Shown in pieces: positions 41,985 to 64,000 of a DNA stretch of 64,000 nt. The first letter of the stretch is position 1. Each line of letters opens with the position of its first letter. The notes under the pieces were generated by a model, which made no database searches, was not told where the DNA came from, and worked only from the letters and a program-made list of their open reading frames with translations. The stretch comes from Monodelphis domestica (lineage: Eukaryota > Chordata > Mammalia > Didelphimorphia > Didelphidae). Both the position numbers and the translations under genes were made by a program. The stretch is from assembly GCF_027887165.1 (NCBI RefSeq), contig NC_077235.1, positions 49,097,395-49,161,394 of the forward strand. The letters are read 5' to 3'.

Positions 41985-42111
41985 GGTAGAGATAGGATTG
42001 AGAGGGGGTTAAAAAGGAAAGGGTGTCAAGAGAAATAGTGATAAGTCCCAAGTTACAGTTACGGGGAAATTCTAGGGGTGAGAGACTAGATAGGTAAAGG
42101 TAATTCTACAT

Positions 42112-42139
42112 AGGTGAAGCTTCCAAGATTACTCACCCT
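42112..42139 (+). ncRNA. Hairpin core, diverged left-most copy
   Basis: GGTGA (42113-42117) can pair with TCACC (42133-42137). The outer arms have lost most pairing. The family member is recognised by AGCTTCCAAGATTACTCACC. Confidence 0.4.
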
Positions 42140-42841
42140 ATCAATTCCAGCCCATTCTGCCCAAGGCAATGACTGATAATGAGTTAACTCCAGTCAGGAA
42201 GAGCAGGAGGAGGTCCAAAGAGTCTGCAGATGCTCTATATTCAGTCCAGTGACCAGGTGGCAAGAAGCAGGAGAGCGGAATATCTACTGAGTTGAAGCAA
42301 ATTGTGCTACTAGAATTGATTGTATGGTGGTGACAATGGAACTCAGGAAGAATAGGGAGGATTCGGGGAAGAAACATGGGAAAACTCTTAGGAACTGATA
42401 CAGAGGGAAGGAAAAACCAGTCAACCACAATGTCAGCGAAAGTCCTTCAAAGTTAAATGATTGCATTATTTTTGTAATGACCAGGATCTTTGCAGTAGAG
42501 AAAAGCTGAGAAGTCACCTCTGTTCCTTCTACATAAATATGATTATAGAGGCAGATGGTCTGTTTGTGAAATCTAGCATATGCAGACTAACTTGGTGGAT
42601 ATTTTGCTGGGTAGAGGTCTTACTGAACTGCCTACCTCCATTTCTTTTTCTAATTCTTTGCACTAAGGGATGGCTTACTTTGGAAATGATAGGAATGGAC
42701 GGACATATTTGGAAATGAGGGTGATGAAAAAACAAAAAGCTATGAGGACATTGTAAAGATAAAGCCATGGAAAGAAGCAGGGGTGGGCAGTGCTGGCCAG
42801 GTAGTGAGAGTGACGAGAGCCTGGATGGGTCAGAAACTGGG

Positions 42842-42905
42842 TCCTGGCTGGTTCTGGAAGGGTGAGGCTTTCTTGATTTACTCACCCTCCAAACATCAGC
42901 TAGGG
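42842..42905 (+). ncRNA. Putative pre-miRNA-like hairpin H1, triplet 1
   Basis: A 25-nt 5' arm (42842-42866), a 14-nt loop (42867-42880) and a 25-nt 3' arm (42881-42905) align without bulges. About 21 of 25 positions pair, including three G-T: AGGGTGAG with CTCACCCT near the loop and TCCTGGCTGG with TCAGCTAGGG at the base. Size and shape fit a microRNA precursor. The 3' arm CTCACCCTCCAAACATCAGC is the most conserved 20-mer in the array. Transcription and processing are not shown by sequence. Confidence 0.6.
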
Positions 42906-43113
42906 CAGCTCTTCCCCAGAGCCAGTTCCAGCGAGGAGTAGCCTATCTCACTGTGGATGGGGAGAGAGAGGAATGGGAAAGCTGAGGGTCTCTGGTCCTG
43001 GTCCGTTGTTCTGGATTCAAATAGCAGGTCTGTTAGCAGGGTGGATAACAATGGCCCAGGCTCTAGCCTGGGTTTCAGAGGAAGGTTCAGAGACTGGATG
43101 GGTTTGAGTCTGT

Positions 43114-43180
43114 TGCCTGCTGAGTTATAGAAGGGTGAGGCTTCTTTATTTTACTCACCCTCTAAACATCAGCCAGGGCA
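43114..43180 (+). ncRNA. Putative hairpin H2, triplet 1
   Basis: Loop-proximal AGGGTGAG pairs with CTCACCCT, and basal TGCCTGCTGA pairs with TCAGCCAGGGCA with small bulges. The 5' arm differs from H1 and H3 (..GCTGAGTTATAG..), while the 3' arm is nearly the same. Confidence 0.55.
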
Positions 43181-43383
43181 GCTCTGCCCCAGGGCCAGCT
43201 CCAAATGGTTATGAATCTACAACACATAGGAGAGGACCACGGACCCTATAGGGTCCCAACTTTTGGTCTGGTTGGTCTGATGTCAAGAAGCAGGGAGAGA
43301 GAAAGTGAGGTAAAGGAAGAATCCCAGGTTCTATCTTCATGTTCAGAAGTAGGTCCCGGAGACTGGATGAGTCAGAGTCTGAG

Positions 43384-43449
43384 TCCTGGCTGTATCAGGA
43401 GGGGTGAGGCTTACTTGACTTACTCACCCTCCAAACATCAGCCATGGCA
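43384..43449 (+). ncRNA. Putative hairpin H3, triplet 1
   Basis: GGAGGGGTGAG pairs with CTCACCCTCC with one bulged G, and TGGCTG pairs perfectly with CAGCCA at the base. The loop is 14 nt. Confidence 0.6.
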
Positions 43450-44119
43450 GCTCTGCCTCAGAGCCAGCTCCAATGGGAAGTCAATGATCTCCAAAAGGGA
43501 TGCACTCTGATAGGTTCTAATTTTGATCCATTGACTGAGTGCTAATAAGTAGGAGGCTAGAACATCAAATAAGGAGATGTTTAACATAGTATGGTACATA
43601 AACGAAACCCATGATTTCTTCAATATAATAATGTAGTTTACCTAGAAAGGATGGCGGGGTGAGGAAGCATGGGAAGACTAATATCAAATGACAGAGAGGG
43701 ATGATCAGCAAGAAAGGAAAACAATACACCAGATCATTTTAAAAATATTCATGGAAAGAGTGAAAGTGCATGCATTGTAGTCATGAGGCCCAGGGCTTCT
43801 GGTCTTGGACAGGAGCTGAGAACATAAACCTGCTTCTTTGCAGTACAGCCTGGCTGGACTTTGTGTGTAGAATCTTGCACAAAGGATCAGGTATTACTCA
43901 GGTGTGAATGAGTGTTGCTGAAGTGCCTTTTCTGCACTTTTCAATTTATGATATAAACTGTGATTCTCCATGTAGGAGATTGGGAGTGATAAGTTTGCCT
44001 CTGAGGGTGATATTAAGAAATGTTGGAAGTGTTTTGAAATTATCATATAAAAAAGCCAGGGGAAATGGCAGGTGTTTGGTCCTATGCTGCCCACCAAATG
44101 TAAAAGCTAGAAAGCCACC

Positions 44120-44215
44120 GTGTGCATTTGGCTAGTTCTAGATACGTGAGGCTTTTTGGATCAACTCTTTTTTCTAGTTTCTGTCAGGTGAGACCTGCTG
44201 CAGTGCCATTTGCAA
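44120..44215 (+). ncRNA. Degenerate hairpin unit
   Basis: GGCTAGTTCTAGATACGTGA, GGCTTTTTGGATCAACTC and TCAGGTGAGACCTGCTGCAG align with the core of the array, but the loop-side stem is largely lost. Confidence 0.3.
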
Positions 44216-44574
44216 TGGGGGAATTCATCGTTTCCATATGGCATTTGGAGGACCATGGACTTTGGAAAGTGTCTAGTATTGGTCCAGGCATCTGGCGATG
44301 AGAAGTAGGGGAGAGGCACATTGATTGGGGAGTGGTTCCGTGGTACCTAAGTGAAATCCATGATCCCTGTGATAGAAGAAAGAATGCCTAGGAAAGGTAG
44401 AAGGAGTCCTGGAGAAACTGATATGAATGGATGCAGAGGGAAGTTAGAAAAACAATATATATGATTTCTTCAAAAATGTGAATGGAAAGCACTGAAAAGG
44501 GAAAGTGAATGCACTATAATGACAACAACCAAAGATTTTGGTTCTAGAAAAGAGCTGAGAAAATATACCTGCTT

Positions 44575-47095
44575 TCCAATATTTGCAATTATGCTATTAA
44601 ACAAAGCAAAAATAGAAATTCACAGCATGAGATAAACAAGAAAACCAGATAGTGCTGAAAGAAACCATAAACAACAAACTAATATTAATATTTGATTTAT
44701 ATGCTTCACATACCTTAGCATATTAATTTTTAAGAGAAAAAACACTGAATCACAAGAAAATATATACAGTAAAACAATAATCACAGTTGATTTTAATGTC
44801 CCTCTCAGTTTCAGACAAATCTAATAGAAAAATTAAAGAGGGAAGGAATGTAGAATGGAACAAAGTGCAGGTGAAATTAGAACTAAAAGTCTCAAATCAT
44901 CTTCTAAATTGGAATATCAAAGAATATACATATCACTCAGAAGCATGTGGATCTTTTACAAAAATTGGCTGTGTGTGAGACCATAAGAGATAGGAAATAA
45001 ATATAAAAATACAGAAATATTAAACATGTTCTTTATAGACTATAGATAATAATAGGCCATGAACAATATAGAACATAGACAATAAATAATCAGTACAAGG
45101 AGCATATAAGTCAGGTAAGGACAAAGTACAGAAGGAGAACTATAGATCATTAATGAATATAATTTCAACAATTTTCAATAAAATCCTGTCAAACAGACTA
45201 TATAGCGATATATACAAGAAATCACTCATTGGATTTACACAAAGGAAATGAGGATGGTTCAACATTATGAAAAAAATAAATATAATTAATCACATTAAAA
45301 ACACAAATGCATCAAACCACATTATTATCTTAATTGATTATTATCTAGTGGGGAAAACCTTTAATAAAGTAGAACCCTTATTTATGCTGAAAAGCCTAAA
45401 AAGTACAGGCATAGAGAGACTTTTTACATATCACGTATCTAAAACAAAAGAAAACATCATATTTAATAGGAATACACTAGAAACTTTTCCAGTAAAGACA
45501 GCAGTGTGGCAAGGATGACTGCTTATACTGGCAGCAGCATTAATTAATACAATAGAAAGAAATTACAAGTGTTAAGATCAGTAAAGAGAGGACAAGACTA
45601 TGCATATTTACTAATGACATGACAGTTTACTTAGAAAATCCTAAGGAATCAGCACATAACAATTGAGACAATAGTTTTATCCAAATTTCAGGCTACAAAA
45701 TAAATCCACAAAGCCAGCAGAATTTCTATATAATAACAACAAAATCCCAAAGATAATATAGAAAGGGAAATATCATTCCAAATAACTACAAAATGCACCA
45801 AGTTGGGGTCAATCTACCAAAGCAACTAAAATACTTGAATAGATTCAGTTACAAAGTGCTACTGGAAGAAATAAAGACTAGCATAAATGACTGGAGAAAT
45901 ATATACAGTGCTCATGGCTAGACATGCAAATATAATAGATACACCAATATTACCAAAATTAATTTACAAATTTCATGCTGTGCCAATCAAACTATTTGAA
46001 GGGATACTTTACAGAACTTGATAAAATAATACAATTCAATAAGAGATTTTAAAAATCTTGAGTATAGAGGGAAACAATGGAAAATAGGAAAGAAGGAGGT
46101 ATAATACTTCCTAACCACAAAACATATTATAAAACAACAGTCATCAAAATTATTCAGTGATTGGTTAAAAAATAGAGTAGTTCAATGGAATAGAATAAAC
46201 AAGTTAGAATCAGAAACAGTGGAATTCTGTAACTCAGTATTTGATAAATTGAAAACATGAATTACTTAGGAAATAACTCCCTATTTGACAAAAAGCGGTG
46301 AGAAAACTGGAAATCAGAATGGCAGAAATTATGTTTGGACCAACACCTTACAGTATATTACAATATAAATTCTAAATGGATATGTGGCTTTAATATTCAT
46401 GATAATATCATATAATTAAGAAGAAAAGCAGATCATATCTTTCACAGCCCTGGTTAGATTTTTTAAAACCAAACAACAGATAGAGGCAATCAGAAAAAAA
46501 GATAAAACTTGTAACCTTGATCATATAAAACTGAAAAATTTCTGCACAAACAAATAAGTATACCTAGGATAAGGAGAGAAATATTCAATGGAAAAATAAA
46601 CTTTGGTTCTCAGATAAGCATTTGGTAATCAAAATTCAGAAACAACTAACATATATATACACACATATATATTTACAGACAAATATATGTATATGTAAAA
46701 CCAAACGCTATTCCTCAATAAATAAGTAACCAAAGCATGTAAAAAAAAGTTATCCAAAGAATTACAAACTATTTACAACCATATCAAGGAATGATCCAAA
46801 TCACTAATAATAAAAATGCAAATCAAAATAAACTTGAGGTTTTAACTTATACCCTGAAAATTTTCAAAGATGATAAAAGATGATAGAACAATCAATGTTC
46901 AATCAATCAAATGTTCAAAAATGTAGGCATACTAGCATATTGGTGGTGGAGTTTTGAATCACCACAACCACTTTCAAATGCAATATGTAATTATGAAAAT
47001 TAAGTGGCTAAAAATGCTCATACCCTTTCACCCAGAGGTTCCAATACTAGGCTTATACTCCATTGAGGTCATTGATACTTCAACTGGGGAATGGC
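44575..47095 (+). mobile_element. Old L1 (ORF2) inserted in the array
   Basis: Asparagine/isoleucine-rich remains of an old L1 ORF2: endonuclease part (44880-44990, ..WNIKEYTYHSEACGSFTKIG..), reverse transcriptase part (45267-45518, INHIKNTNASNHIIILIDYY, ETFPVKTAVWQG) and the C-terminal region to about 47095. Many breaks; much more diverged than the L1s in the first 22 kb. Hairpin-array sequence lies on both sides, so the array was already there when this element landed. Confidence 0.8.
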
Positions 47096-47642
47096 TAAAT
47101 GCATGTGGTATGTGAATGTAAGTCTTGAGATGAGAGGCTTCCATGATTATCTCACCCTGCCTATATCAACCAGGTCAGTTCTTTCCCCTGGGCCAGCTCC
47201 AGTGGAGTGTTATTAATCCACAACTCAGAGGAGGGAGGGAAGGTGGAGGGGTATCAAGGTTGCTATGAACTCTGATAAACCTCTATTTCTGGTCCAATGG
47301 GTTATTAACCAGAAGTGGGTAGTTTTTAGGGGAAACGGGCAGTCCTAGGTTCTAGCATAGTAATCAGAAATAGAGACCATATACACATGAATCAGCATTT
47401 GGAGTCTATCTAGTTGTAAGGGACGGAGGTATCATTGCATAAATCACCCTGCAATCCTCAGGAAATGCAAGATTTATTTATCTCCACAGTGGTGAGGAGC
47501 ATGGGCTCTGGAGGGATTTTCTCTTAAGTACAGTAGCCTGATGTCAAGAAGCTGAGGAAACATCAGGGTAAATGGAGAGACTTAGGTCCTAATCTAATGG
47601 TCAGAAGTAGGGTCAAGGGACTGGCTGGGTCAGAGCCTGAGG

Positions 47643-47706
47643 CCTAGTTGGATTGGGAGGGGTGAAGTTTGTCCTAGATTTGTTTACCCTCAACTTCAGT
47701 ATGGTT
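47643..47706 (+). ncRNA. Hairpin with a compensatory base-pair change
   Basis: GAGGGGTGAA (47657-47666) pairs with TTTACCCTC (47683-47691) with one bulged G. Relative to the usual GGTGAG/CTCACC, the loop-closing G-C has become A-T through changes on both arms, and a neighbouring C-to-T leaves a G-T pair, so the stem is kept. Confidence 0.5.
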
Positions 47707-47804
47707 ATTTCTACCCTATAATTAATCAGTTACCTCCATCTAGGAGAGGGGTGCCAAGGCCACTAGAGTGGCTCTATTTTGGGTCAAGAAAAATGTCAAG
47801 AAAA

Positions 47805-48273: not shown

Positions 48274-48312
<39 letters not shown>

Positions 48313-48345: not shown

Positions 48346-48942
48346 AGAAGTGGTAGGCAAGGACATTGGTTGGTGGCCTGCCTAACAAATTATGCCGCCA
48401 TAATCAATTGCATGATGGTGGTAACCATCCAGGAAGAATAAATAGGAAGGATTCAGGGAGGAAATGTGGCAAGACTCTTAGGAGCTGATGCAGAGGGAAG
48501 GAAGGTAAACCAGGAAAACAGTCTATCCAATGACTATAACAATGTCAATGGAAATCCCCACAAAGTGAAAGAGAGTACAATGTCATTGCAATAACAGAGA
48601 ATATTTTTCCTGGAGACTAGTTGATAAGTCATCTCTGTCCCTTATATGTAGATGACAGGAATCAAGGAGGGTGAAATATTGTATATGCAGGCTGACTTGT
48701 TGGATGAGTTGGCTGTTTTGTTGAATTGCCTTTTTTCCATTTCTTTTTTAATTCTTTGTACTAAGGGATTACTTCCTGTGTTGAGGATGGGAAGGAATAT
48801 ATTTGGAAAGCAGGGTGACATAAAAACAAAATCTCTGATGAAAATTGTACCAATAAAGCAATAGAAAGAAGCAAGTGTGGCAGTATAGAAAAAGGCAAGT
48901 TGGTAAGTGAGAGCAATGAGCCTGGATGGGTCAGAGTCTGGG

Positions 48943-49006
48943 TCCTGGCTGGATCTGGAAGGGTGAGGCTTTCTTGATTTACTCACCCTCCAAACATCAG
49001 CTAGGG
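48943..49006 (+). ncRNA. Putative hairpin H1, triplet 2
   Basis: The same symmetric stem as the H1 of triplet 1, with GATCTGG replacing GTTCTGG in the 5' arm. The 3' arm is unchanged. Confidence 0.6.
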
Positions 49007-49212
49007 CAGCTCTTCCCCAGAGCCAGTTACAGCAAGAAATAACCTGTTTCATTCTGAGTTGGGAGAGAGGACAGAGAATGTGGAGGTTCTCTGGTCCTGG
49101 TCCGTTGTCCTGGATTCAAGTGGTAGTTCTGTTGGCAGGATGGATAACAGTAGCCTGGTCCTTGTCTGTGTGTCAGAGGGAGGGTTGGGAGACTGGATGG
49201 GTTTGAGACCAT

Positions 49213-49279
49213 TGCCTGCTGTGCTATAGAGAGGTGAGGTTTGTTTATTTTACTCACTCTCCAAACATCAGCCAAGGCT
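49213..49279 (+). ncRNA. Putative hairpin H2, triplet 2
   Basis: The 5' arm GAGAGGTGAG faces CTCACTCTC. Compared with GGGGTGAG/CTCACCCT, both arms changed (G to A and C to T) and a stem of about nine pairs is retained in a slightly shifted register. Confidence 0.55.
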
Positions 49280-49468
49280 GCTCTACCCCAGAGCCAGTTC
49301 CAAATGGTTATGAATTCTCTACACATGGGAGAGGCTATAGCCTCTGGAGGATCTCCACTTTTGGTCCAGTGGTTTGGTGTCAAGAGGAATCAGAGTAAAG
49401 GGAGAATCCCAGGCTTTATTCTGATGGTCAGAATGATGCCCCGGAGACTGGATGGGTCAGAGTCTGGG

Positions 49469-49533
49469 TCCTGGCTGTATTGGGAGGGGTGAGGCTTTCT
49501 GGATTTACTCACCCTCCAAACATTAGCCAGGGC
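49469..49533 (+). ncRNA. Putative hairpin H3, triplet 2
   Basis: GGAGGGGTGAG faces CTCACCCTCC with one bulge; basal TGGCTG faces TAGCCA. Confidence 0.6.
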
Positions 49534-50199
49534 AGCTCTGCCTCAGAGCCAGCTCCAATGGGGAGTCAATGATCTCCAAAAGTGAGTTGGCCACAAACTC
49601 TGTAGCAGCTCTATTTCTGATCCAGTGGCCAGGTATCAAGGAGTATATGAAAGGGATGTCAAATGGAAAATGCCTGAACATACTCTGGTACACCAAAATG
49701 AAGCTTATGGTTCCTGTGATATAAGGAAAGAAGCCCAGGACGGATGGAGAGAGGAATGGGAAGATTGTCATCAACAGATAGAGAGGGATGGTCATGAAGA
49801 GAGGAAAAGAGTGTACACAATGTCAACAGAAAGCAACAAAACTCGAAGTGCATGTATTAGGATCTTTCTCCTGGAACAGAATTAAGACAATGCACCTACT
49901 TCTTTTGGGAACAGAGCACCTGGACTTCGGGTGTGGAATACTGCCCCAAACATCAGAAGCAGCTTCTGTGTGGTTTAGTTATGCTTAAGTAAGTGCCTTT
50001 TTTGCATTCCTTGTTTCATTCTATTATTTAAAGGGTAGTTCTCTGGAAGGGGGATGAGGAAACGGAAGTGATCTTAAAACGAAAGATATTACAATTGTTT
50101 TACATGATATAAAGAAACAAGGTCAACAGTAAGGCAAATTTGTTCCAAAGTAGGCAAAAGGATCAGTAGTTGACCCTATGCTGTAGCCCAAATGGAGAT

Positions 50200-50290
50200 G
50201 TTAGAAATTGACTGGGTCAGAGTCTGGCCTCACTTGAGGTGAGGTTTCCTGGATGAACTCCCCGTCCCAGTTTCAGTCAGGGCAGCTCTG
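50200..50290 (+). ncRNA. Degenerate hairpin unit
   Basis: GACTGGGTCAGAGTCTGGCC, TGAGGTGAGGTTTCCTGGAT and CAGTCAGGGCAGCTCTGCTT identify the unit. The 3' arm CTCCCCGTCCCAG has drifted and pairs poorly. Confidence 0.3.
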
Positions 50291-51236
50291 CTTCAGTGCC
50301 ATTTATGATGAGTAATTTCTTGTGTCCATGGTGAAAATGGGAGTCCATGGAAATAAAATGTGTCTACAAGAAGCAGCAAAAGTCACATTGACTGCTGGGG
50401 CTTTAAGTGCTGTGGTACGCAAATGAAGCCCATGATTCAGTTAAGGTGAGAAAGAATCAAAAAGGACAGGCAGAGGCTTGGAAAGACTAATATCAATTGA
50501 TGCCAAGGACAGTCAGAAAAACAGGAACCAGTATTAATGATGACTCCAAAAATGTGAATGCAAAATGCTCTAAAAAGGGAAATTAAAGGCATTTTCTTGA
50601 TAATGACCAAGAAGCTCGGTCCTAAAGCAAAGCTGAAAAAATGTACCTTCTTCCATGCTCTGCAAAGGGGAGAGACTATATCGGTGTGGAACGTGGCAAT
50701 ATGATCAAACTCAATATGTTGTTTGGATTCTAGAAGTACTTTTCTGCATTTCTGGGTTCTAAGGGATGGTCCTCTGGGTAGGGGATGATGAGGCAAGATA
50801 TATGTGGCAGTGATGGTGACGTGCAATAAAAATATTTCCATGTTTGTGGAAGAGGTTTGTCATATATATATATACAACAAGGAGATCTTCAGGAAAATGA
50901 CAAGTCTCTGATCCTAATATATTGAGCAAAGGTAGAGGCTAGAGCCTGAGTGCACATGTGGATGGTCTGAGTATGAAATACTGCATAGGCAGGCTGATTG
51001 GTGGATGTGTTGGTTGGTTTTGCTGAACTGCCGACCGCCATTTCTTTTCTAATTCTTGGTACTAATGGACGGTTTGTTTTGGAAATAATGGGGACGGGCA
51101 TATTTAGAAATGAGGGTGATGAAAAAACAAAAAGCTATGAGGACATTGTAAAGATAAAGCCATGGAAAGAAGCAGGGGTGGGCAATGCTGGCCAGGTAGT
51201 GAGAGTGACGAGAGCCTGGATGGGTCAGAAACTGGG

Positions 51237-51300
51237 TCCTGGCTGGTTCTGGAAGGGTGAGGCTTTCTTGATTTACTCACCCTCCAAACATCAGCTAGGG
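51237..51300 (+). ncRNA. Putative hairpin H1, triplet 3
   Basis: Identical to the H1 at 42842-42905. Confidence 0.6.
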
Positions 51301-51508
51301 CAGCTCTTCCCCAGAGCCAGTTCCAGCGAGGAGTAGCCTATCTCACTGTGGATGGGGAGAGAGAGGAATGGGAAAGCTGAGGGTCTCTGGTCCTGGTCCG
51401 TTGTTCTGGATTCAAATAGCAGGTCTGTTAGCAGGGTGGATAACAATGGCCCAGGCTCTAGCCTGGGTTTCAGAGGAAGGTTCAGAGACTGGATGGGTTT
51501 GAGTCTGT

Positions 51509-51575
51509 TGCCTGCTGAGTTATAGAAGGGTGAGGCTTCTTTATTTTACTCACCCTCTAAACATCAGCCAGGGCA
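51509..51575 (+). ncRNA. Putative hairpin H2, triplet 3
   Basis: Identical to the H2 at 43114-43180. Confidence 0.55.
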
Positions 51576-51778
51576 GCTCTGCCCCAGGGCCAGCTCCAAA
51601 TGGTTATGAATCTACAACACATAGGAGAGGACCACGGACCCTATAGGGTCCCAACTTTTGGTCTGGTTGGTCTGATGTCAAGAAGCAGGGAGAGAGAAAG
51701 TGAGGTAAAGGAAGAATCCCAGGTTCTATCTTCATGTTCAGAAGTAGGTCCCGGAGACTGGATGGGTCAGAGTCTGAG

Positions 51779-51844
51779 TCCTGGCTGTATCAGGAGGGGT
51801 GAGGCTTACTTGACTTACTCACCCTCCAAACATCAGCCATGGCA
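51779..51844 (+). ncRNA. Putative hairpin H3, triplet 3
   Basis: Identical to the H3 at 43384-43449. One of the two base differences of the duplicated block lies just upstream (GATGAG versus GATGGG). Confidence 0.6.
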
Positions 51845-52816
51845 GCTCTGCCTCAGAGCCAGCTCCAATGGGAAGTCAATGATCTCCAAGAGATGAGAAC
51901 ACGGACTCTGGAGGGTATCCAGTTTTGGTCCAATAACCAGGTATCAAGGAGCAATGAATAGGGACATAAATTGAGGAATGGCTCAACATATTGAGATACA
52001 TAAATCAAGCCCACGATTACTATCATATAAAGTCATTTGCCCAGGAAGGATAGAGAGAAGTATGGGAAGATTGATAGGAAGTTGTGAAAAGAGATGGCCA
52101 GCAACAAAGGAAAACAGGGTATTCAATTCCTCCAAAAAGGTGAATGAAAAGGAGCAAAAAGAAAATGTGAAGGAATTATAATGATAATAACCAAGGATCT
52201 AGGTCCTAGAAAACAGTTGAGAAAAGGTGCTTTCTCCTTTGCTTTGCAATGGTGTAAGTCTATGCATGTGGAATATTGCATACAGGTTCAAATTCAATTA
52301 ATGTGGCATTTGGTTGTGCAGAGGTGCCTTCTCTGAATTTATTTCCCTATTCATGGTTATAAGAAATGGTTCTCTGGGCAGGGGGTGACTAGGAAGGTCA
52401 TATATTTCATTAATGGTGATATATAAACAAAGGATCTCCCCATTTGCAGAAAAAACAGCTTTATGGTAAAGATTCATGGATGACCTTCAGAAAAAATGGC
52501 AAGGCTAAGGCCTGTTAGACAAAGGTAGAGATTAAAGGCAAATTGAGTATGTCTGAGCAGTGTTTTTTTCTAGAGATGAAAGGCTTCCTCCCTCCAAATA
52601 TCAGCCAGGTCAGCTCTTCTCTTAGACCATCTCCAATGGTGAGTTAATACATAGCTCAGAAAGAAGGGAAAGGGAGGTTGCTGTGGATTCCAGAAGGCCT
52701 CTACTTGTGTGTCTAGAGAGCTCATTATAGAAGTAAATAGAAAGTCCTAGACTCTGGTCTGATGGTCAGAAATAGGGCCTAATTACAATACGGGTCAGAG
52801 TCTGGGTTCTACTTAG

Positions 52817-52857: not shown

Positions 52858-52904
52858 TCTCAGGCAGGGCAGCTTTGGCCAGGAGCTAAATTAATTTAGG
52901 ACTT

Positions 52905-53390
52905 ACTCAAGCTGAACTGCCAAGCATTCAGACTGTTGCAGTGAGCACAACTTCAATGGGCTAGCTGTGATGCTTGAATGCCAAAAGCAGGTTTGCCTAA
53001 AAGACTATTTTACAGAGAGCTCACACAAGGCAGATGCTCATAGAGAGTTCAGAAGAAATAATACAAGGACACTCTGAAAGTCTCTCTGAATAATTTTGGT
53101 ATTGACTGGGAGACATGGGAGATCCTGGCACAGGACCGTCAAGCATGCCTATCCATGCCAAAGAAGGTGCTGTGTTCTAGGAGCAAAGCAGAATTACAGC
53201 AGCTCAGAAACTGGAGCTGTACAAATTTGGCGATCGCTCTATCTCAAATGTTCACACAGACTATTTGCGCCTGATCTGTGATAGAGCCTTCTGAGCAAAT
53301 ATGGGTCTGGTCAGCCACAATCGGACTCACAGTACATTGACCCTGATATAGTGATGTCATTTTGGTCCTCTTTGAGTATGAAGGACAACA
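52905..53390 (+). mobile_element. RTE-type LINE 3' end inserted in the array
   Basis: GATCCTGGCACAGGACCGTC (the WEILAQDR motif), CTATTTGCGCCTGATCTGTG (the C..C of a C-terminal zinc finger) and GGTCTGGTCAGCCACAATCG (GLVSHNR) match the C-terminus of RTE-type LINE ORFs, followed by TGATGTCATTTTGGTCCTCT. No single frame is open throughout, so it is an old broken copy. Array sequence resumes with GTGATCTCCACAAGGG. Confidence 0.65.
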
Positions 53391-53555
53391 GTGATCTCCA
53401 CAAGGGAGAGGAGGGGGCATGGACTTTGGAGAGACTCTCTTTCTTTTAGGTTCAGTGCCCTGATGTCAAGAAGCTAGGGAGGCATCATGGCAAATGGGAA
53501 GACCCTGGTCATATCCTGATTGTCTGGAGTAGTCCAGGGACTGAATGGGTCAGAG

Positions 53556-53622
53556 TATGGGACCTGGCTGGATTTGGAGGGGTAAAGTTTGTCATTGATT
53601 TACTCACCCTCTAAACTACAAT
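53556..53622 (+). ncRNA. Diverged hairpin unit
   Basis: GGAGGGGTAAAG opposite TTTACTCACCCTC. The unit is easily recognised, but a G-to-A change in the 5' arm leaves an unpaired position in the stem. Confidence 0.4.
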
Positions 53623-53849
53623 TTGGGCATCTCTTTCCCAGGTCAGCTTCCATGGTCAATCAATTAGCTGCACCTAGGGGGCCCAAGGACTCTGGTGGGC
53701 TCTCTTTTGGGTACAGTGGCAGGTTGTCAAGAACCAGCTGAGAGTTGGACATTGATTGGAGGAGTCATTTGCGTGATAGTGGCAACAGATTCCAGGAGGA
53801 ATAGGAAGGATTTAGGGAGGAGGAATGGGAAGACTCTTAAGAGGTACTG

Positions 53850-53962: not shown

Positions 53963-54430
53963 GAGGGAAGGAAGGAGAACTAGAAAATCAATCTTCCGGT
54001 GACTCCCACAATGTCAGTGGAAATCCTCACAAAGTGACAGTGAGTACATTGATATTGTAACACTAAAGAATCTTGTTCTTCTAGACAAGTTGAGAAAAGT
54101 TCTCTCTCTCCTTTCTATGGAGCTATTGGGGAAATATGAGTATATAATATTGCACATGAAGGTTAACATAATGAATTAGTTGGTCATTTAGCTGAATTGC
54201 TTTTCAACTCCATTTTTTTCTAATTCTTTGTACTACTCAAAGGCTTATTTTGGAAATGATAGGGATGGGCATTTTTGGAAAAGGTGATGTCAAAACAAAG
54301 GCTATAATGAAAACCATAAAGATAAAGCAATGGAAAGAAGCAGGGGTGGACAGTGTAGAAAAGGCAAGTTTTAGAACTTAGTGAGGTTGTGAGTGAGAGA
54401 GATGAGAGCCTGGATGGGTCAGAGTCTGGA

Positions 54431-54494
54431 TCCTGGCTGGATCTGGAAGGGTGAGGCTTTCTTGATTTACTCACCCTCCAAACATCAGCTAGGG
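54431..54494 (+). ncRNA. Putative hairpin H1, triplet 4
   Basis: The 5' arm ATCCTGGCTGGATCTGGAAG (upper part) faces the standard 3' arm. Confidence 0.6.
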
Positions 54495-54682
54495 CAGCTC
54501 TTTCCCAGAGCCAGTTACAGCAAGAAGTAACCTGTTTCATTCTGAGTTTGGAGAGAGGACAGAGAATGTGGAGGTTCTCTGGTCCTGGTCCGTTGTCCTG
54601 GATTCAAATAGCAGATCTCTTAGCAGGGTGGATAACAGTGGATAACAGGGAGGGTTGAGAGACTGGATGGGTTTGAGTCTGT

Positions 54683-54749
54683 TGCCTGCTGTGCTATAGA
54701 GGGGTGAGGCTTGTTTATTTTACTCACCCTCCAAACATCAGCCAGGGCA
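54683..54749 (+). ncRNA. Putative hairpin H2, triplet 4
   Basis: GAGGGGTGAG faces CTCACCCTC with one bulge. The 3' arm is the array consensus. Confidence 0.55.
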
Positions 54750-54951
54750 GCTCTGCCCCAGGGCCAGCTCCAAATAGTTATGAATCTATTACACATAGGA
54801 GAGGACCACAGACTCTATCGGATCCCAACTTTTGGTTGGGTGGTCTGATGTCAAGAAGCAGGAGGTAAGGAAGAGAGGTAACGAGAATATCCCACGTTCT
54901 ATCTTTATGTTCAGAAGTAGGTCCCGGAGACTGGATGGGTCAGAGTCTGGG

Positions 54952-55017
54952 TCCTGGCTGTATTGGGAGGGGTGAGGCTTGCTTGATTTACTCACCCTCC
55001 AAACATCAGCCAGGGCA
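54952..55017 (+). ncRNA. Putative hairpin H3, triplet 4
   Basis: GGGAGGGGTGAG faces CTCACCCTCC; CTGGCTG faces CAGCCAGG at the base. Confidence 0.6.
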
Positions 55018-55217
55018 GCCCTGCCTCAGAGCCAGCTCCAAATGATTATGAATTCTTTACACATGGGAAGAAGTCATGGACTCTGGAGGGTCTCTACTTT
55101 TGGTCCAGTAGAATGGTAGCAAGAAGCAGGAGTTGAGGCATCAGGTTAGCAGAATACTAGGTTCTAGCCTGATTATCAGAAGTAGACCCCAAGCACTGGA
55201 TGAGTCAGAGTCTGGGT

Positions 55218-55282
55218 CTTGACTGTATCAGGAGGGGTGAGGCTTTTTTATTTACTCACCCTCCAAACATCAGCCAGGGCAG
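55218..55282 (+). ncRNA. Putative extra H3-like hairpin after triplet 4
   Basis: GGAGGGGTGAG faces CTCACCCTCC with a T-rich loop (GCTTTTTTATTTA), 265 bp after the preceding H3. This makes a cluster of four. Confidence 0.6.
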
Positions 55283-55764
55283 CTCTGCCTCAGAGCCAGC
55301 TCAAATGGGGAACCAATGATCTCCAAAATAGATGAGGCCATGGATTCTGGAGGGTTTGTACTTTTAATCCAGTGGCCAAGTGTCAAAACGTACCTAGGAA
55401 AGGCATTGACGGGGAATTATCTCAATATATTATGGCATGTGAATGAAATGATTGACTTCTACAGTATGAGAAAGGATGCGTAGAGTGATGAAGGAAGACT
55501 GAAACAAACTGATACAAAGGAATGTTCAGAAAAAAAGGACCAGAATGTATATAGTGACTCCAAAAATGTCAATGGAAAGCAATAAAAAACAAAGTAAAAA
55601 GACTAGAATAGTAAGGTCTACGGATCTGGGTCCTGAAGAATAGTTGTGAAAATATCTGCTTTTTTTGTTTTGCAGTAGTGAGGGACTGTGGGTGTAGAAT
55701 ATAGTGTATAGAGTCAAATATGGTTGAGGGGAAGTTTGATTTTATCAAAGTGCCATTTTTGCAA

Positions 55765-55848: not shown

Positions 55849-56049
55849 CATTTCTATCAGCAAGGAATGATAAGAAAAGCTTTATATGGCAGTGATTACA
55901 ATATAGGAACAAAAGATTTCACATCGGTGAAAAAAAAGATTGTAATATAAAGACACAAGGGATGATCATCAAGAAAGTGACACATTCCCTTGGGACCCCA
56001 AGTTCTTGGGCAAAAAGGCTAAGGACTGGTTGTGTGTGTTTAGCCTGGG

Positions 56050-56100
56050 TTAATTCTCTACATGTGAGACTTCCTTGACTATCTCACCATCTCAGTGCCA
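56050..56100 (+). ncRNA. Diverged hairpin unit
   Basis: GTGAG (56064-56068) faces CTCAC around a 14-nt loop. Only five loop-side pairs remain. Confidence 0.35.
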
Positions 56101-56329
56101 GCCAGGTTAGCTCCTCCTCTGGGCCTGCTCCAATAATGAAATAACAATCCCCAGACCTGAGGGATGAGGGAGGCAGTGGGGGAGGAGCAGGGTTGCTATG
56201 GACTCTAGAGGATATCTATTTCTGGTCCAATGAGCTCATGACAAGGTAATAAATAGGTAATTTCAGGTTGTAGTCTGGTGGACAGAAATAGGAACCAGAT
56301 AGAGCAAGGGAAAAGAACTTAGGGTCTAT

Positions 56330-56395
56330 CTAGTTGTAGAGAAATTAGGTGTCATTGAATAAATCACCCTGTAATCCTCAAGCAGGACAGGTTTG
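56330..56395 (+). ncRNA. Diverged hairpin unit (subtype with GGTG/CACC)
   Basis: ATTAGGTG faces CACCCTGTAAT, with GGTG/CACC and ATTA/TAAT pairing around a bulge. The same subtype occurs near 47415 and 52817. Confidence 0.35.
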
Positions 56396-56599
56396 CCCCA
56401 GAGCCTAGTCAATTAAGGATTAAATTACCTCCACAGGGGAGGAGAGGCATGGGCTCTGGAGGGATTCTTTTTCTCTCTCTCTTAAGTCCAGTGCCCTGCT
56501 GTCAAGAAGCTGGAGAAGCATCAGGCTAAATGGAAAGACCCAGGTCCTATCTTAATGGTCAGAAGTAGAATCCAAGGACTGAATGGGTCAGAGTCTAGA

Positions 56600-56668
56600 G
56601 CCTAGTTGGACTGGGAGGAGTGAGGTTTGTTTCAGATTTACTCACCCTCTCAACTTCAGTATGGGCAC
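56600..56668 (+). ncRNA. Diverged hairpin unit
   Basis: GGAGGAGTGAG faces CTCACCCTC. GTGAG/CTCAC is kept and one position is mismatched. The 5' phrase GCCTAGTTGGACTGGG links it to the copy at 47643. Confidence 0.4.
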
Positions 56669-57329
56669 CTCTGCTGCAAGGCTAGGTCCCACAGTCAATT
56701 ACCTATGCCTGGAGTGGGGCAAAGACCCTGGAGGAGATATACTTTGGGTACAGTGGCTAGTTTTCAAGAAATAGCCAATATCGATTGGAGGAAGGCTTAA
56801 ACAAATTATACATTTTATACAAAATTAATTAATGCTGTTGGTAATGGATTTTAAAGGGAATAGGAAGGATTTAGGGAGGGGAAACGGGAAGACTCTTAGT
56901 AGATAATGCAGAGGGAAGGAAGGAGAACTAGGAAAACAATATAATCAATCACTACCACAGTGGAAAGCTTCTCAAAGCAAAAAAAGTGAGTGCATTGTTT
57001 ATTGTAGAGACCAAGGATATTCTCGTGGACTTGCGAAAAATCATCTCAGTTCCTTCTATATAGATGTGGGAGAAATATGTTGTTCCTGGTGGGACTTAAC
57101 AGAACCACTTTAGCTTCATTTCTTTAATCTGATTCTTGTACTAAGGGATGGCTTAGAATGGAAATAATGGGGATGGGTATATTTGGAAATGAAGGTGATG
57201 TAAAAACAAAGGCTATGACGAAAATTGTAAAGATAAAGCAAAGGAAAGAAGTAGGGTTAAACAGTTCAGAAAAAGGCAAAGTCCAGGTCCTATTCAGATG
57301 ACGAGAGCCTGGATGGGTCAGAGTCTGGA

Positions 57330-57393
57330 TCCTGGCTGGATCTGGAAGGGTGAGGCTTTCTTGATTTACTCACCCTCCAAACATCAGCTAGGG
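57330..57393 (+). ncRNA. Putative hairpin H1, triplet 5
   Basis: Same arms as the H1 of triplet 4. Confidence 0.6.
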
Positions 57394-57592
57394 CAGCTCT
57401 TCCCCAGAGCCAGTTCCACTGTACATAGCCTATTTTGTTTTGGACTTTTAAAGGGGGTAAGGAAAATTGAGGATCTCTGGTCCTGTGTCTTGGATTCAAG
57501 AAGCAGATCTGTTGAACAGTTGGATAACAATGGCCTAGTCCTTGCCCGAATGGCAGGTGGAGAGTTGGGAGACTGGATGGGTTTGAGTCTGT

Positions 57593-57659
57593 TGCCTGCT
57601 GTGCTACAGAGAGGTGAGGTTTGCTTGATTTACTCACTCTCCAAACATCAGCCAGGGCA
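57593..57659 (+). ncRNA. Putative hairpin H2, triplet 5
   Basis: GAGAGGTGAG faces CTCACTCTC, the same paired variant as in triplet 2. Confidence 0.55.
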
Positions 57660-57846
57660 GCTCTTCCCCAGGGCCAGCTCCACATGGTTTTGAAATGATT
57701 ACACATAGGCAGAATTCCTACTTTAAATGACCAGCTTGTTGTCAAGAAGCAAAGCTTTGGTTAGGCACCAAGGTAAAAGGAAAATCTGGGGTTCTATCCT
57801 GTTGTTCAGAAGTAGGTCCTGGAGACTGGATGGGTCAGAGTCTGGG

Positions 57847-57911
57847 TCCTGGCTGTGTCAGGAAGGGTGAGGTTTACTTGATTTACTCACCCTCCAAACA
57901 TCAACCATGGC
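57847..57911 (+). ncRNA. Putative hairpin H3, triplet 5
   Basis: GGAAGGGTGAG faces CTCACCCTCC. Basal TGGCTG faces CAACCA, which keeps most pairing. Confidence 0.55.
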
Positions 57912-58559
57912 AGCTCTGCCTCAGAGCCAGCTCCAAATGGTTAAGAACTCTCTACACATGGAAGGGACGGTCCTTATTTTTGATCCTGTAACAAGACATC
58001 AAGGAATCGGGAAAGGTACATGGACTGGGGAATGCCTCAACATACTCTGGTAAGTGAGGGATAACCATGATTCCTGCAATATGAGAAAAGATGTTTAAAG
58101 GATGTAGGGAGGTATGGGAAGACTGAAATGAAGTGATCCTGAGAAATACTCATCAGGAGAGGGAAAGAATGTATACAGTGATTCAAAAAATATCAAGGGA
58201 AGACATTAATAGGTGAAACTGCACGTAAAAATGGATCTTGGTCATTGAGGAGAGATGAGAGGAGGGATGCCCTTAACTAAGTAGAAAAAAGAATGGTAGG
58301 GACTTAGTTGTGGACTCACTAACTCTCAGACACAATTTCTATGAAGATGACAGGCAAAAAAATGTGTTTTTTAGTCTTTGAACAAATTCTGGCTCTCTGG
58401 CTAGGGAAGGGAAAAGTAGGAATACAATTGGAAATGAATGTAATAGCAAAATGAAAAGTATTAGAAATATCTCGAATTTATCAAATGAAGAAGTTAGGGG
58501 AAACAATCAATCTCTGGTCTTATGCCAACTTAGGCCAGCTGTAGATTCAAGTTGGGTCA

Positions 58560-58650
58560 AAAATTGGGTGGTTCTTAAGAAGTCAGATTACCTTAATGAA
58601 CTCCTCAGCTTAATCCAGGGCAGGTCTTCTATGGGCCATTTTCAATGGTC
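58560..58650 (+). ncRNA. Degenerate hairpin unit
   Basis: The position in the unit and the phrase GAACTCCTCAGCTTAATCCA identify it, but little stem is left. Confidence 0.25.
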
Positions 58651-59584
58651 AGTTGATTATATGGGTACTGTAGTCACATGGACTCTGGATAATATTTCAT
58701 TTTAATTCATAGGGCTCCTCTGGAGAAGCAAGGCTGAAGCACATCAATTAAACATTAGCTCAATCCAATATGGTAAAGAATAAAAGTAAAGATTCCAGCA
58801 ATTTCAGAGAAGACAATTTGAAAATTTGAAGACTGAAACAAACTGATTAAGAGAGATGCTCAGCCACAGAGGAAAAGATAGTATAAAGTAACTTTAAAAT
58901 ATAACAGAAAAGACTAATAGGTGTAAGGAAATGCATTATGACTATAATGAGCAAGGATCTTATCCTGAAGGAGATTGGAGAGAAGGAATTTACCTGCTTT
59001 GACTAGTTAAAAAATGGTGAGACATTAGTTGCTGAATATTGCCTAAATATTCAGACAAAGCCTAGGCAAGGGTGCGTTTAGGTAAAGTGTTTTTTCTTGC
59101 ATTTCTAATTTATTCTTTGAGATAAAAATTGCTCATGGTGTTAAGTGAAGGTGATGTCAAAACAAAGGATATTAAAAGTATTTTTGAAATTTTGGTATAA
59201 AGAAATAAGGTCATTGGTGGGTAAAATGCAGCTTCTTTGGTGATCTGTAGAGCTCTGGGACACTGAGTGTGAAATAATTCTGAAATTGTCAGTCACAACT
59301 TACATTTAGGTGAGTTATTTGAATTTTATATATATATATATTTCTCTTATCTTTTGACACAAATTCTGGGTCTCTGGCTACTGGAAAAATGGGAAGGGAT
59401 ATAATATATATGCATTAGATATACACATATATATGGAAGTGAAATTGATATCTAATTAAAACATGTGAGAAATATTTGAACATTATGGTATTAAGAAAGA
59501 GTTTCATCTGTAGGGAAAGTGATATAGCCCTAGTCCTCAACTGTTGACCAAGTATGAGTGCTAGAAGACCACTTGGTCAGACCT

Positions 59585-59640
59585 TAGCTTGTTCTGGAAA
59601 AATGAGGCTACTTTTATTCTTCCCAGGTCCATCAGGGTTA
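59585..59640 (+). ncRNA. Diverged hairpin with a different stem sequence
   Basis: TGGAAAAAT (near 59597) faces ATTCTTCCCA around a 12-nt loop: about eight pairs with one bulge and one mismatch, although the arms no longer read GGTGAG/CTCACC. Confidence 0.4.
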
Positions 59641-61267
59641 TTTGAAATGGGGAACTTCTTATCTCCCTATATAGGCTCTAGTCAGAGGGTTTTAAAATTT
59701 TGCTTAAGTTCTGTTCTCAGGCCTACATTGGAGAAAGAGGGTTAGAAGCACTTGGAGAAGGTATCTCATCATGTGAAGGTATAAAAATTAATTACATGTC
59801 TTCTGCATCATCTTTGGTACCTGAATGAAACATATGACTTCTGTAAAATAAGAAAACAATGCTTTGAAGGTTGAAGAAAATCAAGAAAAGACGGAAACCA
59901 ACTAGTGCAGAGGGACACTAACCAAGAAAGCAAAACATTATATATAAAGCAACTTCAAATATAATAAGGGAAAGCACTGAAAGATGAAATGAAATGCTAT
60001 AACCACGGCGATGGGCAAAGATCTTTTCTAAAAGGAGAAGGGAGAGAAGGAATGCAATTGCTTTGGTTAGATATGGACATTGGTTGGGAAATATTGCCTA
60101 AATGCAAAGACAAAACCTTGGTAGAAGCGTTTAGGACTGAAGAGTCTTTATTGCATTTGTAGTTTCATTCTTTGATAGAAAAGTTGGCTCTCTGGGAATA
60201 TGATGGTAAAGGATATGTTTATAAATGAAGGTGATGTCAAAAGAATGGCAAAGTAAGTATTGCTGATGTTCTTTTATAACGAAACAGGGCTACCAGTAGG
60301 TTAAATTCTCCTGCTTTTATTGTGTAGAAAGTTATGCCATGCTGGATGTGGAATATTTCTGAAATTGTCAGTCGCATGTGTAAGTTATTTGTAAATAATG
60401 TTATGTGTAAGTAATTTTGTGTGTGTGAATTTAATGAATTTTTTTGCTTGATTCAAGTTCTGCTGCTTGGGTTAATGAAGGAAGATCAGAAGTATACCTG
60501 TATATGTATATAGCTATAGATACATAGAAATGTATGTATATGTGTGTATAGAGATGTATGTGTGTGTGTCTAAGTGAAGATAATGCCAAAAAATAGTAGA
60601 TGACTTTTTTACACTCTAGAGTAAGGGATATCAAGGGGTAAATTACAGAGTTGTCTATGCATCTTTGGGCCAGTGAGTATAGAATATTTGGGAAATTATC
60701 AATTTCATATTATGTTCAATTGATTTTTCTGAAGTGGATTTAATATATTTTCTTTTTCATCTTTTGATGCAAAGTCTTCTTCTCTGACTAATGAAAGAAT
60801 ATATAGTGACACATTTGGAAATGAGGGAGATATCCATGCAAAATGCCAGAAATGTCTAGAAATTTATTAACATTGTTAAAATACCAAAACAAAGGTTATT
60901 AAAAGGATTTTGACATTCTGATAGAAAGACAGAAGATAATCATTGAGAGAAATGGCTGTACCTTGTTATCTGGGATATTAAAGATGGAATGTTCCTGGAA
61001 ATGTTAATCATAGCTCATATGTAGTTTACTTTATTTGGAAATAGATTTAATACATTTTTTTTTATTTTTTTAAAATAAAAACGTCTGCCTCTCTGACTAG
61101 TGAAAAGATGAGTAAGTATGTATTTGGAAGTGAAGGTGTTACCTAAACAAAATATATTTGAAATGTGTTGATGATAACAAAGAACAGGTTCATCATTAGG
61201 GAAAAATCACATCCCAAGTCCTCAGCTATTAGCCAACTGTGTGTCCTAGAAACTGGCTGAATCATGG

Positions 61268-61335
61268 ATTAGCTTGTTTTGGAAAAGTGAGCCTACTTTC
61301 ATGAACTCCTCTTCCCATCTCCAGACAGGGCAGCC
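61268..61335 (+). ncRNA. Diverged hairpin with a different stem sequence
   Basis: TGGAAAAGTGAG faces CTCCTCTTCCCA: about ten pairs with one bulge and two mismatches. Confidence 0.4.
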
Positions 61336-62517
61336 CAGCCTTAGGGACATTTCTAAGCGAGAACTCGGTATCTCCATTATAAAGACTGTGTTTTAGAGAT
61401 TTTACTCTTAGACCTGTGTTGGAGAAAAAGGGAGCACCTGGATTTGAAAACATGTCACCATTTCATGGTACATGAACAAAGCCCATGTCTTCTGCAGAAT
61501 AAAAAGAATTCTTGGAAAGATAGAGTGAGTCATGGGAAGAATGAAACAAACTGATTCAGAGGGATGATCAGTAAAATGGGACTTGAAAATATTAAGGAAA
61601 AACACTAATAGGTATAACAAAATGCTATTCAATTTTAATGAGCAAGATGTTTTTTCCTGGAGTCGAAATGAGAGCAGGAATGCAATTGCTTTGGTTGGTT
61701 ATAGAGCTGTGGGATCTTGGTTGTGAAATATTGCCTAACTGCTCTGAGAAAATTTAGGTGAGGGTATACCACACTGAAGTGTCTAGTGAAATTGTAGTTT
61801 CATCCTTTGATAGGAAACTTGCCTTCCAGGAGATGAGATGGAGAAGGACATATTTGTGAATGAAAGTGATGTCATGTAGATGAGAAGTATTGGTGACATT
61901 TTGTTATAATTAAACAGAGCCATCAGTAGGTAAAATAATCACTTCTTGGTTACTCATAGAGGTCAGGAACACTGGATGTCAAATATTTAAGAAACTGTTG
62001 GTCCCACTTTATTTGTAGGTAATTTTTTAAAAGCCCATTAAACACTTTTCATTCTTGTTTCTTTGATTCAAGTTCTGGTTAGTGAAGGATGAGAAGGGAT
62101 ATTTTTTTAAATGAAAATGATGTCAAAAGAATATTAGAGGTATTTTTGGTATCGTGATAAAAAGATATAAGGTTGTCAATAGGTAAAATGGCCCCAGTGT
62201 ATTCATCTATAAACCTCTGAGACACTGGGTGTGGATTTTTTCTGAAATTCTCAACCACAGCTCATGTTAATTGATATTTTTCAAGGATATTCAACACATT
62301 TTTTTCATTCTGTGATATCAAGTCTGGTTCTAGGTGAATTTTGAAGTAAAGTGATATTTTGAAAAAGCAGAGGAAAATATCCAATGTATGTTAGAAATGG
62401 GCTGACATTATAATATCAAGGATAAGGGTCATCAAAATGGAAAGGGAAAGGTCCATAGCCCTCAGCTCTTGGCCAAGTGTACGTGCTAAGAAACAAATTA
62501 AGTAGAGTTTAGTCATT

Positions 62518-62580
62518 AGAGTTTATCAAGGAGCAGGGTTACTTTCATTCTCTTCCCAGCTCTAGACTCAGGACCATTTG
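62518..62580 (+). ncRNA. Diverged hairpin with a different stem sequence
   Basis: GAGCAGGG faces CCCAGCTC (one mismatch) around a 16-nt loop, with outer GAGT/ACTC pairing. Confidence 0.4.
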
Positions 62581-63484
62581 CAATGAGGCATTCATGTTCT
62601 CCATTTATGAACTCTGAGGAAAGGAATTTGGGCATATGACTAAGTTTTGTCCTCAAACCTGCTTTGGAGAAAGAGGGCTGGAAGCACTTGCATTTGAAGG
62701 CATCTGATGGTATGGGAAGGAATCCCATGACTTCTGCATTATAACAAAGAATGCTTGGCACCATGGAAAGAGTCATGGGAAAGCTGAAACAATGTGATGC
62801 AGAATGATGCTGGGCAACAGAAGACAACAATGCATGAAATGACTTCAAGCATATGAAGGGCAAGTCCTAATAAGTGAAGTGAAATGCAAAGCTGTTATAA
62901 TGAATGAGGATTCTTTCCCAGAGAATTAAAAGAAGCAATGCAATTACTTTGGTTGGATGCACTTCTGTGGAACACTGATTGTGAAACAATGCCTAAACCC
63001 ACAGTCGGAATTTTGATGAGGGAGATGTTGGTGGACATGTCTTACTTGCATTTTTACTTCCATTGTTTGATAAAAAGAAAAATTGGTTCCCTGACAACAG
63101 TTTTATGAAGGACTTGTTTATTAATACAGATGTCAAAAAATGCCAAGGAGAAGACTTGTCATTGTTGTGGAAGGAAACAGGGCTACCAGTGGGCAAATTG
63201 CCAATGCTTTGGTTGTCTGTAAAGGTCTGTAACAGTGAAAGTGGAATTTCAAACAGACCTTTTGCTTATGTTGATTTTTTTCAATTTTGTTTTAGTCCAA
63301 TTTCTTTTCTCTTTGTTTGATTTGGGCTATTTAGCTAGCGAAAGGAAGTGAAGAGACGTACCTAGAAATGAAGGCGTTATCCAGACAAAATATAGTAAGC
63401 ATGTTTGGACCTTATGATATCAAAGAAAAAAGTAATCTGTGGGGAAAATTATTTGTCCCATGTTCATAGCTGTTGAATAACTGA

Positions 63485-63570
63485 GTTGGTTACATTATGG
63501 CTTATTGTAGAAAGGCGGGGCTGCTTTCATGAACTGCTCTCTTCCCAGCTCCTGCCATGGTGACCTTGAC
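63485..63570 (+). ncRNA. Diverged hairpin with a strong basal stem
   Basis: GGTTACATTATGGC faces GCCATGGTGACC: about eleven basal pairs, including one T-G pair and a small bulge. An inner GGG/CCC stem lies around the loop. Confidence 0.4.
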
Positions 63571-64000
63571 TCAGGGCCATTTTCAGAGGAGAATTCATGA
63601 TGATATATGGGCTGTGATCACAGGGACTTGAGATTCTGCCTAAGGTTCCTCCTTAGGCCTGTATTGGAAAAAGAAGATTGGAAGCTCTTGAATTTGAAGG
63701 CATCTCATCATCTGATTGTATGAGAAGGAATCCCAGGACTTCTGCAGTATAAGAAAGAATGCTTGGCCAGATGGAGGGAGGAATAGGAAGACTGAAACTA
63801 GTTAATGCTGGAAAATGCTAAGCAAGAGAAAAAAGTGTTGTATAAAGTGACTTTGAACCTATGAATGGAAAAAAGTAACAGGTGAAACAAAATACAATTC
63901 AATTATAATGAGCAAGGATGCTTTCCTGGAAGAGAACTGAGAGAAGCAATGCAATTACTTGCGTCCACTACACCACTGTGGAACATTAGTTGTGAAATAT

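Follow-up and report, generated by a model that had tools for sequence, protein, structure and literature searches.

Organization of the array

The window analysed here, the whole stretch to which all positions below refer, is 64,000 nucleotides (nt) of Monodelphis domestica DNA (NCBI RefSeq assembly GCF_027887165.1, contig NC_077235.1, positions 49,097,395 to 49,161,394 of the forward strand). From about 42 kb towards its end the window carries an array of related copies of a hairpin-forming core, in which the hairpins, and above all one of their two arms, are conserved. The core has arms of about 24 nt and a loop of 14 nt (13 nt in one copy), much as in the original prediction, which was made from the sequence alone, and it recurs in a single orientation. 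Iterated nhmmer searches of the 64-kb window with a profile of the core found 43 matches at E 1 or below. The 33 with E < 1e-3 are all on the plus strand and span 42,079-63,601. Seven weak matches on the minus strand (E 0.003-0.61) all lie on copies with a significant hairpin (strong copies), because the core is a palindrome, and three matches are outside the array (E 0.38-0.75). The exact pattern GGGTGAGGCTT..CTCACCCT occurs 13 times, and 0 times in 100 shuffles. The original prediction spoke of about two dozen folding copies in a repeated unit of about 1-1.3 kb. A repeated hairpin and a repeated array are indeed present, while the count and the simple unit need revision: 33 copies are detectable, 16 of them with a significant hairpin, and the modules are arranged in triplets that alternate with diverged copies and are interrupted by an L1-like insertion.

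The 16 strong hairpins make up five groups, each with three or four modules whose loops are spaced 253-273 bp apart: S1 (42.8-43.5 kb), S2 (48.9-49.6 kb), S3 (51.2-51.9 kb), S4 (54.4-55.3 kb) and S5 (57.3-58.0 kb). In each group the modules follow the order of three classes, A-B-C, with an extra C' in S4. The foldbacks are given here without a strand. S1 has three intact hairpins, of class A at 42807..42940 (loop 42867-42880), class B at 43080..43213 (loop 43140-43153) and class C at 43349..43482 (loop 43409-43422). In S2 the class A foldback at 48908..49041 (loop 48968-48981) and the class C foldback at 49434..49567 (loop 49494-49507) are intact hairpins, and class B lies between them at 49179..49312 (loop 49239-49252). 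The class A and class B foldbacks of S3, at 51202..51335 (loop 51262-51275) and 51475..51608 (loop 51535-51548), have cores identical to those of S1 A and S1 B, and are followed by an intact class C hairpin at 51744..51877 (loop 51804-51817). S1 and S3 match at 89% over 1.18 kb and, judging from these identities, are a recent duplicate pair. S4 has intact hairpins of class A at 54396..54529 (loop 54456-54469), class C at 54917..55050 (loop 54977-54990) and class C' at 55182..55314 (13-nt loop 55242-55254), and its class B foldback is at 54648..54781 (loop 54709-54722). In S5 the class A and class C hairpins, at 57295..57428 (loop 57355-57368) and 57812..57945 (loop 57872-57885), are intact, and class B is at 57559..57692 (loop 57619-57632).

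Self-comparison of the window indicates a layered array in which diverged copies, as three triplets and as single copies, lie between and beyond S1-S5, all on the plus strand. The triplets are at 47119..47741 (copies at 47119, 47388 and 47614, without a significant hairpin), 52544..53675 (copies at 52544, 52791 and 53534) and 56020..56707 (copies at 56020, 56314 and 56572, the last with the strongest arm duplex among the 17 diverged copies). Single copies are found as profile matches at 42079..42189, 44128..44240 and 50202..50329, and five more lie within 58551..63601, at 58551, 59575, 61246, 62512 and 63493. Related repeat units reach the right edge of the window. Most of the diverged copies would be best viewed as dead modules. 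The L1-like insertion that splits the array is on the plus strand at 44600..47110 (ends placed by eye), and within it parts of 45251-46853 resemble L1-like sequence found to the left of the array. A second dispersed-repeat insertion in the array, at 47817-48111, is similar to 14579-14718, 23318-23168 and 34902-34794.

A profile built from nine of the spacers between hairpins has five matches to the left of the array. They range from E 1.3e-9, at 29,405-29,240 on the minus strand, to E 0.055. The spacer element is probably a common marsupial repeat.

Folding of the copies

Each copy was folded over 53-83 nt (81 nt in most strong copies) and compared with shuffled versions, with z < -2 as the cut-off. 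Folding better than shuffled sequence had been set as a test for the copies in the original prediction, and part of them pass it: 16 of the 33 in the minus direction, 13 in the plus direction, and the rest fail. These 16 coincide with the A, B and C modules of S1-S5 (C' included), and the other 17 have no significant hairpin on either strand. Among the strong copies S5 B is the weakest (z -1.0 on plus, -2.5 on minus); S2 B has z -1.1 on plus and -3.5 on minus, and S4 B -1.7 and -3.8. The arms form 18-22 Watson-Crick pairs of about 24 in all 14 distinct strong copies.

The whole window was also scanned in 85-nt windows with a step of 12, in which only windows of -18 kcal/mol or lower were compared with 40 shuffles. 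The left 41.5 kb holds 32 clusters with z < -3 and the 22.5-kb array 30. Strong copies account for 15 of the 30 array clusters (S5 B was missed), and the other 15 occur at about background density. Significant folding singles out the modules within the array, yet is not unusual for the window. Folding energy was considered as proof of microRNA identity and judged insufficient, as comparably significant hairpins are found elsewhere, for example in a stretch near 30,973 that resembles a short interspersed element (SINE; z -8.5). That stretch, at 30960-31080, is the top hairpin cluster of the scan; it is distinct from the array core and resembles a tRNA-derived CORE-SINE. An inverted-repeat search of two other hairpins found nothing.

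Conservation of the hairpins and of one arm

To compare the groups, S2, S3, S4 and S5 were aligned from 600 bases before to 250 bases after each triplet, S1 being omitted as a duplicate of S3, and gap-free columns were used. The columns share ancestry, and the p values below describe a contrast rather than independent events. Over the aligned stretch the four groups differ pairwise by 29-35%. Averaged over pairs of groups, the columns outside the foldbacks, taken together, differ by 0.39, the spacers that separate hairpins by 0.27, and the two flanks that lie 61-110 nt away from the loop by 0.28 and 0.32. Conservation declines where the foldbacks end. Inside them the two outer stems have values of 0.12 and 0.14 and the loop 0.119, and on the plus strand the 5' arm has 0.079 and the 3' arm 0.043. 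Of the 78 columns of the 3' arm, 72 are invariant; the corresponding counts are 330 of 930 columns outside the foldbacks (Fisher p 5e-24) and 120 of 221 spacer columns (Fisher p 2e-10). The longest invariant run, 61 nt (51248-51308 in S3), extends across the class A hairpin. It is fixed at all positions in S2-S5, which is unlike a pattern of coding constraint. Another well-conserved stretch of these groups is 51384-51408 (0.05 over 19 columns), which lies between the A and B hairpins.

What was observed is real, and goes beyond a palindrome that arose by chance. As an alternative the original prediction had named a neutral tandem repeat whose inverted repeat is accidental, and the 17 of 33 copies that lack a significant hairpin, together with the comparable hairpins elsewhere in the window, are what such a repeat would be expected to show. 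A repeat of this kind fits poorly with the conservation of the 3' arm, where variability is about 6-fold lower than in the spacers and 9-fold lower than in the whole set of columns outside the foldbacks, across four groups that differ by about a third overall. We therefore consider a neutral repeat extremely unlikely.

The contrast between the arms is clearest when classes A, B and C are pooled (13 copies, S1 omitted). The 3' arm then differs by 0.062 and the 5' arm by 0.271 (Mann-Whitney p 0.002), the loop by 0.19 and the far flanks by 0.56 and 0.58. The motif AAACAT in the conserved arm, which faces the most variable part of the partner arm, shows no variation in the 13 copies. In a microRNA gene the mature arm is expected to be more conserved than the star arm, the loop and the flanks, and in our comparison across classes the conserved arm does stand above its partner, the loop and the flanks. 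Conservation of an arm beyond the needs of pairing is expected of a guide strand.

Two other RNA-level explanations bear on the same measurements. The array may be a structured repeat element of a long non-coding RNA, or may encode a protein-binding RNA hairpin that acts uncut within a transcript. The foldback exceeds the smallest microRNA precursors in length, and conservation includes its outer stems, as would be expected of such an element, and long non-coding RNAs with repeat domains are on record, among them the marsupial RSX described below. A purely structural role predicts something other than an arm that stands far above its partner across classes, even at AAACAT, and about half of the copies (17 of 33) are without a significant fold, so we regard this explanation as unlikely. 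The array may also be a source of other small RNAs, namely hairpin-derived small interfering RNAs or germline PIWI-interacting RNAs (piRNAs), as long foldbacks and tandem repeats are typical of the loci from which these arise. Sources of piRNAs need no conserved 22-nt arm, whereas here one arm is nearly invariant across classes, and we think this origin very unlikely.

A candidate microRNA cluster

Because the arms are far more conserved than the spacers, and one arm is conserved above its partner and the loop across classes, a microRNA-like cluster is the best fit to our results. Our preferred reading, which we hold with moderate confidence, is that the array is a lineage-specific microRNA cluster grown by tandem duplication, as the original prediction had proposed, although the window gives it no match at the Rfam threshold.

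Several results weigh against this reading. Rfam gave 0 matches at the gathering threshold in the window; six matches with E up to 5 in 41,500-64,000 look like chance, and none is on a strong copy. Consensus pairs run from column 16 to column 120 of 135, that is, beyond a typical primary-microRNA stem. Within classes the excess of the 3' arm over the 5' arm (72 of 78 against 67 of 78 invariant columns) does not reach significance (Fisher p 0.30). Part of the conservation could also have been produced by short-tract gene conversion. A swapped-arm test, finally, found no co-evolution of the arms in strong copies (12 distinct, p 0.46) or in diverged copies (17, p 0.32), and the p of 0.004 over all 29 arises because of the class split.

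Covariation was examined as support for the structure and set aside, given the relatedness of the copies and this negative swapped-arm test. Over all 33 rows (31 distinct) two-sided changes affect 56 cells; shuffles give 37, and none of 500 reaches the observed count. The covariation score is above that of all slid versions. The number of pairs with a change on both sides was equalled by 20 of 500 shuffles and the number of further pair types by 47 of 500. The excess is confounded, because related copies inflate the counts. With RNAalifold, the 14 strong copies have a double change in 2 of 28 pairs. The diverged copy at 52,791, an exception among the copies, has the clearest re-formed stem, in which other bases have restored the pairing by several paired changes.

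Strand and predicted guide

The conserved arm is the 3p arm of a plus-strand hairpin and the 5p arm of a minus-strand hairpin, and the microRNA reading stands independently of the choice of strand. In the original prediction the product came from the 3' arm of the plus strand; the arm it picked is the conserved one, while for the strand itself the evidence is mixed, with a slight lean to the minus strand, where this arm is 5p. Of the 16 strong copies, 15 have their lower z in the minus direction, and among the 15 that the scan found, seven pass on minus only, eight on both strands and none on plus only. Under strand-neutral pairing the inner stems of the 14 distinct copies have 10 G-T and 26 A-C mismatches on the plus strand. 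This excess favours minus, because a plus-strand A-C is a G-U in minus-strand RNA. Most plus-strand folds of classes B and C have internal loops of 5-7 nt that are absent from the minus folds, B1 (which has the same core as B3) and C5 excepted.

Pointing away from minus, the raw folding energies of the 16 copies divide 8:8 between the strands, and 6 of the 14 distinct copies, all those of class A among them, fold lower on plus. In three of the 15 copies with a lower minus-strand z the two strands are no more than 0.14 apart, which lies within the noise of shuffling, and when the 60-nt arms are counted in full, G-T and A-C balance (40:37). The Drosha motif CNNC is expected at 16-18 nt from the cut, and on the minus strand it lies 18-20 nt from the predicted cut in 16 of 16 copies, with the cut position assumed and the 5p start placed at U or one base before. 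These strand counts come from related copies, which are not independent.

If the minus strand is used, the predicted 5p product is approximately UGAUGUUUGGAGGGUGAGUAAA, with minor variants; it begins UGAUGUUU, and its seed is GAUGUUU in 15 of the 16 copies and AAUGUUU in one, S2 C. The plus-strand alternative predicts a 3p product of approximately CUCACCCUCCAAACAUCAGCCA or close variants.

Evenness between strands is also what would be expected of an element that acts at the DNA level, with no RNA role, such as a palindromic protein-binding or recombination site, or of short-tract gene conversion. The 8:8 division of energies and the 40:37 ratio over the 60-nt arms accord with this, as do the arms without co-evolution and the recent duplication of S1 and S3. 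The inner-stem mismatches are uneven (10:26), though in related copies, and a symmetric binding site predicts equal half-sites, whereas the two halves here are unequal across classes (0.06 vs 0.27). We consider a DNA-level element distinctly unlikely.

Proposed mechanism and known systems

From the features of the array we infer its transcription, strand, processing, guide choice and function as follows. Tandem duplication would have multiplied a foldback some 130 bp long that lay in spacer DNA partly derived from a dispersed repeat. Sixteen modules retain a primary-microRNA-like hairpin, with the remainder dead or diverged. A long transcript, with the minus strand slightly favoured, would be cut by Drosha and Dicer into 22-nt RNAs, and the conserved arm would be loaded into Argonaute and repress transcripts with matching seed sites. 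The occurrence of one seed in many copies would raise the dose. More speculatively, the array would be a marsupial microRNA cluster not described before, with a single guide arm (seed GAUGUUU if minus) carried by at least 16 intact copies over 15 kb, perhaps extending past the window. Its hairpin would have grown in transposon-derived spacer, and selection would fix one arm while the partner and the spacers drift, making the cluster a dosage amplifier for a single guide. This fuller version is possible, though we would not call it probable.

Eutherian X chromosomes provide the best-known examples of rapidly expanding microRNA clusters. The array is probably a case, new or already catalogued, of clustered, fast-evolving microRNAs. 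Apparently live and dead copies stand side by side in it, giving a view of cluster birth, retention and loss, and it yields a precise prediction: 16 loci, one conserved arm and two named candidate guides.

An X chromosome microRNA cluster of Monodelphis domestica, reportedly the subject of Devor et al. 2011 according to the title of that paper, is the nearest described thing to the array, a likeness drawn from the title only. Work on the Monodelphis X cluster is cited in an excerpt of a later paper (PMC9290354). The MIR-506 family, as presented in excerpts of PMC11031087, is a eutherian X-linked cluster of multiplied, fast-evolving hairpins for which a transposon origin has been reported. Going by those excerpts its mode of growth is similar to that of the array, whereas membership of the array in the family has no sequence support: the window has no Rfam match to it (the presence of a mir-506 model in the library being unconfirmed). 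A possible resemblance of the arms to sequences of the miR-506 family was considered and dropped, having no support from the Rfam scan. The origin reported for the family involves the transposon MER91C, while the spacers of the array resemble a dispersed repeat of this window. No neighbour gene of the SLITRK2/FMR1 type was recognised among the 10 frames of the window scanned against Pfam, and no feature observed in the window points to the X chromosome.

Two marsupial systems are also comparable. The NOVEL-16 family of the Tasmanian devil and the thylacine (MirGeneDB Sha-Novel-16) is multi-copy, with subtle differences between copies, in the portion of PMC10552650 that treats it; the name P11 there suggests eleven or more copies, and the likeness to the array is one of description only. 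RSX is, in excerpts of PMC12287537 and PMC11112854, a marsupial tandem-repeat non-coding RNA, a single RNA of 30 kb in koala with four repeat domains. On that account RSX and the array are both marsupial tandem repeats, the latter possibly a non-coding RNA as well, and they are likened by description rather than by sequence. Excerpts of other papers report 244 predicted novel microRNAs in the Tasmanian devil (PMC3281993) and, in the tammar, that most alignments were novel (PMC3277949). Since papers with many novel marsupial microRNAs exist, prior annotation of the array is a live possibility. When strings from both arms were sought in the main texts of open-licence papers (supplements excluded), only one 14-mer matched, in six apparently unrelated papers, and among the literature matches listed from such main texts we recognised no description of the array.

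Other features of the window

A tRNA search of the window found none. Ten open frames were compared with Pfam, and three matched (two L1-type, one hAT) while seven had no match. The L1-type frames are on the plus strand at 2647-5914, with ORF1-type domains and a reverse transcriptase. On the minus strand, at 22255-22497, a frame has a hAT dimerisation domain (PF05699, E 1.6e-5) and may be a hAT transposon remnant or a domesticated gene. Just left of the array, at 41400-41537 on the plus strand, a short open frame looks coding by eye and has no match in Pfam or among PDB chains. At 10893-11757 a 477-bp unit is present in 1.8 tandem copies with 84% matches.

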